Origin: Candidatus Bathyarchaeia archaeon
Lineage (GTDB): Archaea > Thermoproteota > Bathyarchaeia > Bathyarchaeales > Bathycorpusculaceae
Assembly (NCBI GenBank): GCA_030019335.1
Contig: JASEET010000001.1
Span: 296,241 to 332,253, forward strand
Length of the DNA: 36,013 nucleotides
Direction: 5' to 3'
The notes below the pieces were generated by a model. That model was not told where the DNA came from. It saw only the letters and a list, made by a program, of their open reading frames with translations, and ran no database searches. A program made the translations under genes and the position numbers. Shown one piece after another: positions 29,561 through 31,942 of the stretch (the first letter of the stretch is position 1; each line of letters begins with the position of its first letter).

Positions 29561-29896
29561 TTAAGCAACCATTTCCCGTGGAGGTTTTCCTATGATCTTT
29601 TTAACTCGCTTTAAGACCTCTTCTGAAGGTTTTTTAGGACTAAGGCTCAACTCAACATACCCTTTTGTTGCAGCTTTGTAGATGAGTTTACCGGTATATC
29701 CTAATTTAATCGCCAAGTATACAGGAATCGTCCCTTTCAATGTAACCATATGTAATAGCAGCTGATACAGCTTCGTCAAGTTAGGAGGTATGCATTCCAG
29801 TGTCCCAAACCACGTGTCAAGAAATTCTAAGCCTTTGACCTTTAACACCAAATACCTTCTTTGATGGACAAAAGAGGTTCTCCGCATTATAATCAT
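29561..29896 (-). CDS. Hypothetical protein, basic, possibly nucleic-acid-binding
   Basis: A 111-residue basic protein with no recognised family. It starts MRRTSFVHQRRYLVLKVKG, has a hydrophobic middle (LTKLYQLLLHMVTLKGTIPVYLAIKLGYTGKL) that could form helices of a winged-helix-like fold, and ends in a Lys-rich stretch. ATG 29896 or 29887 can serve as start; a TATA-like ACTTTAAAT lies unusually close upstream. Its 5' end overlaps a small plus-strand frame, so both may not be real. It precedes the Cys-rich and LSm genes on the same strand. Confidence 0.45.
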   Translation of the reverse strand: MIIMRRTSFVHQRRYLVLKVKGLEFLDTWFGTLECIPPNLTKLYQLLLHMVTLKGTIPVYLAIKLGYTGKLIYKAATKGYVELSLSPKKPSEEVLKRVKKIIGKPPREMVA

Positions 29897-30046
29897 TTAA
29901 AGTATGTTGAGACTACACCACAACCATCCATTTCGAAACTAGAAGTTACCTTGGATGCAGATCTAATGAGCAAGCTGAAGACGGCTGGCGCTGCAAACAA
30001 AACACCATCAGAAATTGCAGAACTTCTCAGACAGCAATTGAGGTAA
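29861..30046 (+). CDS. Possible ribbon-helix-helix small protein
   Basis: The last 38 codons read SKLEVTLDADLMSKLKTAG and then a helix PSEIAELLRQQLR. This fits the strand-helix-helix pattern of RHH DNA-binding proteins. The first 20 residues look unnatural and overlap the start of the opposite gene, so the true start may lie further in, although no good start codon is seen after the TATA-like CATTTAAAG at 29894-29901. It could be a short remnant. It lies just upstream of the RpoH-like pseudogene. Confidence 0.35.
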   Translation: MMDKRGSPHYNHLKYVETTPQPSISKLEVTLDADLMSKLKTAGAANKTPSEIAELLRQQLR

Positions 30047-30120: not shown

Positions 30121-30682
30121 GTGAGTGTGCGTTCTCCAGTGAAAATCCAAACAGTTGAGGAAAGAAAAGCTCTAATTCTTATTGAATTTAGGGGTTATAA
30201 GCTGATAAGACGCGAGGAACAAGAGGACGTCATCAACTTTATGGTTAAACTTCGTGGGGGAAAAAGGCAGTTATTGTGTGCATACTGAACCGCAAAGTAG
30301 TAGGAGTAGCGTTTGTTAGAAAACTAAGAAAATTTATGGATGTAATTGGACTTGAAAAAGGAGTTATAGTTGCTAATGCACGATACACTTTTGCTTCTAA
30401 AAGAGAAGCAAGGAAATATAGTATAGAGCTAATTCCGAGGCGTTTTCCAGCCTTCAACATTTTTAAACACAAGTTGGTGCCAAAACATGAAATTCTTCTA
30501 CCAGAAAAAGCAAAAGACCTGTTAGAGAAGCATCATATAAAGCCATATCAACTTCCCCGAATCAAATCATCGGATGTCGCTGTAATTGCAATAGGTCGAA
30601 ACCCGGAGACATCATCAAGGTTACGAGAAAAAGCCTCACAGCAGGAAAACACATTGCATACAGATTTGTTGCTCCGGGATAA
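30121..30682 (+). pseudogene. RpoH/Rpb5-like protein with extra N-terminal nuclease-fold domain, two frameshifts
   Basis: Three frames join into about 187 residues. Frame one (GTG 30121 or 30127) gives IEFRGYKLIRREEQEDVINF and breaks at GGGGGAAAAA near 30256-30265. Frame two gives KKAVIVCILNRKVVGVAFVR, KGVIVANARYTFASKREARK and IELIP, then the RpoH core HKLVPKHEILLPEKAK and IKPYQLPRIKSSD, to about 30600. Frame three gives PGDIIKVTRKSLTAGKH and AYRFV to a TAA at 30680. The C-terminal 80 residues are the archaeal RNA polymerase subunit H domain. The first 105 resemble an Mrr-like restriction fold, also the fold of the eukaryotic Rpb5 jaw. The conserved DP reads DV. Confidence 0.7.
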
Positions 30683-30721: not shown

Positions 30722-31942
30722 ATGGGTAATGACATGTTAAAAGACTGGCGTAAACGGAGCAAGCGCGGCTATTTCGTCAGCACATCTTCTGAATATAAAT
30801 TGTTGCTGAAAGATGAGAGCGTCGAAAAATGGATTTCGAATCTAAAAAAGAAAGCTGGATGGAGAACAACTGTTCCCAGTTTTCTCAGAACCTTATACAA
30901 GTTTACTGAATACTCAAGTAAAAGTCCGAACGAGCTGATTGCTATTGCGTCTACTGCTAAAAAACTTGACCAGCCGGAAGAATTGACTTCTGCAACTTCT
31001 GTAATCACGGAACTTGTGCAAGGGTTTATAAATGAACTTCTAAGTTCTGGCAAACGAGAAAGAGCAAGACATGTAAGGACATGTCTGAAATCTTTTTTTT
31101 AAAAGCGAACGGCATCTCTTTAGAACTTGACAGCATTCCTAGAGTGACCAAAAAAGAAGAGTTTATTCCTAACAAAGAGCAAGTTTATGCTATGGCAGAC
31201 TATGCTGGTTCTCCTCGAAACCGAGCCATAATCCTGTGTATGTATCAGAGCGGGCTTGGAATAACAGCCTTACGGAATCTTAATTATAGACATGTGAAGG
31301 AACAGCTTGAAAAAACAGGATTCCTGTAAGGATTCGCATCACGTCTCGCATTAATAAAAAAGCTTCACGGGTGCCGTTTTATGCTTTTTTTGGAGCTGCG
31401 GCTCTCGATTCTTAAGAGCGTATATTAACGAAAGAAGAAGAAAAACTCAAAAAATGAGGGAAAAAGGAGCTAAAGTGAGAGAATTAACGGAAAGCAGTCC
31501 CTTATTTGCGTCTGAAGGAAAAAACGTACCCTCTGGAGACAGAATGGCTGTCTCAAGCATCTGGCGCGTCGTTAAAGACTCAGCAGAGCGGACTGGATTG
31601 CAAAAAGAAAAGATTCAACCCAATTCTCTAACAAAGGCGTTCGAAGCAGAGTTAAAGAGATCGACTATAGACGAAGAAATTACGAAATATTTGATGGCAA
31701 GTCCCATTCAAGGTATAAAATACAACGTCGATGAAGTCGAACAAAAATATTTGATTTGCAACTTTGGTGGATCAAAACTTAGCAAGCTGACAATTGTCAA
31801 AGAGTTTGTGCAATCGCTCGGAATAAAAGGGCTTGAAACAAAAATACAAGAAATCCTAACACTTAACCCACAAATGACAGAAATGGAAGCCATAAGATTC
31901 ATTGTGCGCAAAGAATTTGCATCCTACTCTAAAAAGAATTGA
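30722..31942 (+). pseudogene. Tyrosine recombinase (integrase), frameshifted and catalytically degraded
   Basis: Rejoined over three breaks (a T8 run at 31093-31100, around 31310-31325, and near 31410), the frames give a protein of about 400 residues. An SAM-like core-binding N-domain is followed by a catalytic domain with ILCMYQSGLGITALRNLNYRHV (first Arg kept), RITSRINKKASRVPFYAFFG (Lys hairpin), then PNSLTKAFEAELKR, where integrases have HxLRk, and KYLMASPIQG, where they have GHp. The His, second Arg and His/Trp are thus lost; a Tyr remains in GIKYNVDEVEQKYL. A helical tail of about 50 residues follows. It is a dead integrase or, less likely, a former integrase kept as a DNA-binding protein. 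Confidence 0.72.

Follow-up and report, generated by a model that had tools for sequence, protein, structure and literature searches.

A restriction-nuclease-fold domain in front of RpoH in one clade of Bathyarchaeia, and a frame-broken second copy beside a recombinase gene

The window, by which is meant the whole 36,013-nucleotide stretch of Bathyarchaeial DNA that was analysed, contains a frame-broken gene for a two-domain form of RNA polymerase subunit H (RpoH) within the features listed in Table 1. Its three successive frames, when rejoined, give one continuous protein of 187 residues; the place, the content and the number of frameshifts, two, are as an earlier note made from the letters alone had read them. 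Profile searches with the rejoined protein find Mrr_cat (E 2.3e-6) and, C-terminal to it, Rpb5_C (E 1.6e-27), which bears out the proposal of that note that an RpoH domain stands behind an N-terminal domain of nuclease fold. The PF01191 score of 95.5 bits is above the curated cut-off, and the Mrr_cat score is 28.1 bits (38.4 bits for the homologue L005) against a cut-off of 21. The gene is called RpoH2 here, after the second clade of long proteins to which it belongs, and the ordinary copies are called RpoH1; intact members of both kinds score 105–107 bits against NF007129, the NCBIfam equivalog for RpoH, whose cut-off is 83. A sequence similar to the 61-aa open reading frame upstream also precedes RpoH2 in L114 (78%) and, in part, in L112; by eye it resembles a small ribbon-helix-helix protein.

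Table 1. Coordinates of RpoH2 and the features around it (positions of the window).
Feature	Position	Strand	Remarks
61-aa ORF 5′ of RpoH2	29861..30046	+	perhaps a third gene of the unit; matches no family
RpoH2, frame-broken two-domain RpoH copy	30121..30682	+	GTG start aligned with the L110 start; TAA stop 30680-30682
RpoH2 frame 1	30121..30261	+	47 aa; N-terminal restriction-fold domain begins
Mrr_cat match	30184..30437	+	residues 22-106 of rejoined RpoH2; catalytically dead restriction-endonuclease fold
RpoH2 frame 3 (second piece)	30264..30596	+	remaining N-terminal domain, linker FPAFNIF, most of Rpb5_C
RYTFASK loop of RpoH2	30381..30401	+	aligned to the DNA-touching TPSA loop of eukaryotic Rpb5 (PMC6690254)
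Rpb5_C / RpoH assembly domain	30453..30682	+	match at residues 112-184 of rejoined RpoH2
DV codons in place of DP	30573..30578	+	RpoH2 clade signature
RpoH2 frame 2 (third piece)	30599..30682	+	end of Rpb5_C (KPGDIIKVTRKSLTAGKHIAYRFVAPG); stop included
XerA-like tyrosine recombinase directly 3′ of RpoH2	30722..31942	+	frame changes at three places; gene order shared with L110, L112, L114

The genome of the window (1.64 Mb, estimated to be 100% complete) carries rpoH at two loci only: one is the window copy, the other an intact 188-aa gene with the same two domains on contig C7. A canonical rpoH beside rpoB, which the earlier note had expected, is not there: no short rpoH was found in this genome, the region in front of rpoB on contig C13 included, and its ordinary RpoH is the long form, sited elsewhere. 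Intact homologues, which that note had proposed to look for, are present in the same genome and on 21 named contigs, where they are unbroken, 180–200 aa long and 64–88% identical along most or all of their length. These 21 loci all come from Bathyarchaeota or archaeal metagenome-assembled genomes, one of them titled miscellaneous Crenarchaeota group. The possibility that the extension is an artefact of misjoined frames was rejected in view of these unbroken two-domain homologues.

Within the family of the window, rpoH was detected in 76 of 91 genomes, and its frames are all at least 182 aa long save the fragments of the window and one truncation at a contig end. Across the class, long RpoH is found in families f1–f9, f16, f21, f22 and f23, and short RpoH in f10–f15 and f17–f20; a 76-aa RpoH in G127, the sole case of that length in the class survey, is cut by the end of its contig. 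Elsewhere in the phylum the RpoH open frames are 79–152 aa among the matches listed. When 250 genomes of the phylum were searched with an N-domain profile, RpoH bearing the domain turned up in this class only, the matches outside being weak and chiefly to large Mrr-like proteins. All of 35 diverse homologues (35/35) match Rpb5_C, Mrr_cat and the inactive-REase family PF22722. Three long RpoH genes lie on separate contigs of G173, of family f23 (L083, L084 and L134), and G113 has two divergent ones (L061 and L062). A viral origin of RpoH or RpoH2 was discarded, as no relatives of either were found in viral contigs. A subclade of Bathyarchaeia carries the long two-domain protein as its only RpoH. 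Being the sole RpoH of these genomes implies that RpoH1 would be incorporated into RNA polymerase, as a predicted subunit.

Gene position separates the two forms. Short rpoH lies directly in front of rpoB at 18 of 18 loci, whereas the long rpoH loci with wide flanks, of which there are more than 60, all lack rpoB nearby. No RpoH was found 5′ of rpoB in the 34 genomes classed as long; one of these, G155, is so labelled in the RpoB tree from its family, RpoH itself not having been detected there. The position before rpoB is a genomic habit that the long RpoH lacks, and is not essential to membership in RpoH. An RpoB tree built from 51 genomes puts those with long RpoH on one side of a single branch, nested within the Bathyarchaeia that have short RpoH; the support (SH-aLRT 92) is good, not overwhelming. 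Distant families also share neighbours of long rpoH, such as a small conserved protein downstream. Since the long genomes form one clade, and rpoH has gone from the side of rpoB in them and stayed there in the short ones, a single event of relocation with gain of the N-domain is indicated. One move plus one fusion is the best account of the long RpoH.

The suggestion of a paralogue of the polymerase subunit is upheld for the window copy, which in a tree of 40 long proteins falls in the second clade, RpoH2, with support of 100/98. RpoH2 copies occur in families f1, f2 and f4. Of 94 homologues 89 retain DP; the other five, with DV or DI, are the intact RpoH2 members and no others. DV is a signature of this clade and not the mark of decay for which it had been taken. 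In four f1 genomes a XerA-like recombinase gene lies 15–40 bp 3′ of RpoH2 on the same strand, at a locus adjoining rps8e-scpB-scpA-smc, and it is confined to the same four of 91 genomes as RpoH2, with a 38% relative in one further genome. The recombinase scores 44.5 against a cut-off of 27.1 for Phage_integrase (PF00589), and 68 bits against a cut-off of 220 for the XerA equivalog NF040815. Both genes have dN/dS of 0.15–0.27 and no in-frame stops. RpoH2 is likely an accessory or alternative subunit.

Against three near relatives the window RpoH2 has lost single bases at two places, and the recombinase has three indels. In other genomes one gene of the pair is broken, namely the recombinase of L110 (1111-2139 and 923-1111) and the start of RpoH2 in L114. 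Because the pair is broken in other genomes too, it seems prone to loss.

Two other readings of this locus have to be weighed. Assembly or sequencing errors could have produced the breaks, with RpoH2 intact in the cell; this would agree with the low dN/dS and the want of in-frame stops in the window copy, and some of the indels do lie within or beside homopolymer runs. Yet all five fall in two adjacent genes, with gltX, SRP19, Lsm, rps8e, scpA and scpB around them open, and the near relatives named above carry single breaks in the same pair, so that error is a minority prospect, if a serious one, and recent decay is the likelier explanation. That this copy may be dying, as was proposed earlier, hence stands on the frame breaks as possible decay. 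Alternatively, RpoH2 may serve the recombinase instead of the polymerase, for instance as a targeting factor or as part of a domesticated mobile element. The tight and exclusive pairing in the four family genomes, the patchy occurrence of RpoH2 and the breakage of several copies of the pair would all suit such a role. However, intact RpoH2 genes in L060 and L068 have no recombinase alongside, the assembly domain is well kept except for DP to DV or DI, and the locus is a shared chromosomal one where no other mobile-element genes were seen. A role as recombinase partner is consequently judged unlikely.

The N-domain is a restriction-nuclease fold without the active-site residues. Modelled alone by AlphaFold2, it has an alpha-beta-beta-beta-alpha-beta core (pLDDT 86.7, pTM 0.79); in the model of the full protein (pTM 0.55) the mutual placement of the two domains is uncertain. 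A fold search with the N-domain model returns EndoMS/NucS (4e-5), yeast-type Rpb5 (1.7e-4), MspJI (1.9e-4) and human Rpb5 (7e-4), that is, Rpb5 and restriction-type nucleases together, and with the full model Rpb5 takes ranks 1–33. A profile of the N-domain only, run against the PDB, has Rpb5 chains as its seven best matches, aligned within the jaw. By profiles, models and fold search alike, the architecture resembles that of Rpb5, a restriction-fold domain and then the assembly domain, as the earlier note had supposed. The Pfam family Rpb5_N (PF03871) has no match in 35 long RpoH at E<=1, and across 121 genomes it gives only noise, with one RpoH at E 1.34. Closest to the N-domain is a family of Bathyarchaeal ~190-aa proteins in which a domain of like kind is joined to a Cys-rich tail (hhalign 99%); Rpb5 stands below this at 88–94%. 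Members of this ~190-aa family (L118:983-1549, L117, L119–L130 and L135) retain the PD-type Asp but have an Arg on strand 3, and their tail, CRAKCG...ESDCKG...SDNASFHFERGW, has no Pfam match. Stand-alone Mrr-like proteins of 112–122 aa (L131:1029-1394 in contig G000:C33, and L132), weakly related to the N-domain of RpoH, are kept in many genomes of the order.

In eukaryotes the Rpb5 jaw lies at the downstream end of the DNA channel, where its TPSA loop touches DNA (PMC6690254). The jaw has been stated to be eukaryote-only (PMC2675907, PMC3906176, PMC6690254), and archaea are said to have in its place an open groove, filled by Rpo13 in Sulfolobales (PMC2675907). The RpoH loop aligned with TPSA has T in 27/30, A in 26/30 and K or R in 28/30; the T and A are features of the domain family as a whole, unlike the basic residue. 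The T-x-x-A loop also occurs in Mrr-like proteins outside polymerase, and so does not by itself single out a DNA-holding role. We infer that the N-domain most likely acts as a downstream-DNA jaw.

A working nuclease tethered to RNA polymerase, one of the options first raised for this gene, would be in keeping with an Mrr_cat score beyond the Pfam cut-off and with the fold matches to EndoMS/NucS and MspJI. But 30 of 30 RpoH N-domains lack the PD-motif Asp and none of the 30 has (D/E/Q)xK on strand 3, whereas the related ~190-aa Bathyarchaeal family keeps the PD-type Asp in 15/15. Without these residues the domain does not qualify as a conventional nuclease, and the tethered nuclease is almost certainly to be dismissed. 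Common descent of the Bathyarchaeal jaw-bearing RpoH and eukaryotic Rpb5 from one fusion is another alternative, whether the fusion was ancestral and lost in most archaea or was passed between a Bathyarchaeal lineage and a proto-eukaryote. If true, an archaeal clade would preserve, or have handed on, the step by which the lower jaw of eukaryotic polymerases arose. The preference of the N-domain profile for Rpb5 in the PDB speaks for it, as do the identical domain order and linker position and the hhalign result by which Rpb5-N is nearer to RpoH-N than to the Bathyarchaeal Mrr-like family (17%). Nevertheless, the long RpoH is one clade inside short-RpoH Bathyarchaeia, N-domain-bearing RpoH was not seen outside the class among the phylum genomes searched, the closest matches of the N-domain are Bathyarchaeal Mrr-like proteins, and in the C-domain tree, whose domain is too short to resolve the inner forks, the eukaryotic sequences stand apart at 100/100. 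A late single origin together with separate eukaryotic C-domains favours parallel evolution; common descent appears improbable, and the proposed route to the eukaryotic subunit is not supported by these data. The likeness to Rpb5 most likely reflects parallel recruitment of one domain family to a common site.

Taken together, a scheme can be proposed in which rpoH departed from the front of rpoB in one subclade of Bathyarchaeia and gained there, once, an N-terminal Mrr/restriction-endonuclease-fold domain devoid of an active site, the two-domain protein then serving as the sole RpoH of the subclade. The window gene belongs to RpoH2, an older second paralogue whose gene, in four related genomes, forms a pair with that of a XerA-like recombinase. 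It stayed under purifying selection, and both members of the pair would have lost their reading frames recently in the genome of the window. This whole account, with relocation, single fusion, a jaw-like but catalytically dead domain of nuclease fold and an RpoH2 paralogue, is considered probable, with some reserve.

The open-access literature that was searched yielded no account of a jaw domain in an archaeal RpoH. The portion available of a 2026 survey of archaeal small subunits treats the contacts of Rpo5 and mentions no such domain (PMC13257274). Against the eukaryote-only statements, a whole archaeal clade carries, in its only RpoH, a jaw-like domain that has the same fold and the same position, and the origin of the eukaryotic jaw thereby becomes a comparative question. 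The clade also offers a natural one-polymerase system in which to ask what a jaw does, a case of a dead restriction-type domain recruited to the core enzyme of transcription, and a duplicate of subunit H that forms a pair with a recombinase.

Among known systems, the closest in layout is eukaryotic Rpb5 (RPABC1), which likewise has a restriction-fold jaw and then Rpb5_C, at 210–215 residues against ~185; the N-domain profile matches it at E 1.7e-4 with the T-x-x-A loop aligned. Unlike Rpb5, the long RpoH is ~25 residues shorter and has no Pfam Rpb5_N match, its N-domain is nearer to Mrr_cat, its C-domain is separate in the tree, and the fusion arose inside Bathyarchaeia. With canonical archaeal RpoH/Rpo5 (~80 aa) it shares a C-terminal domain that scores above NF007129 and PF01191, and differs in the extra domain of 105 residues and in a gene away from rpoB. 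The N-domain matches the profiles of both the Mrr_cat endonucleases and the NACHT-associated inactive REase (PF22722), and its fold is common to EndoMS/NucS, MspJI and AF1548; unlike the Mrr_cat endonucleases, it lacks catalytic residues and is joined to a subunit of polymerase. Rpo13 of Sulfolobales, which fills the groove left by the missing Rpb5 jaw and for which contact with downstream DNA has been proposed (PMC2675907), is in contrast a separate small helical subunit of unrelated fold.
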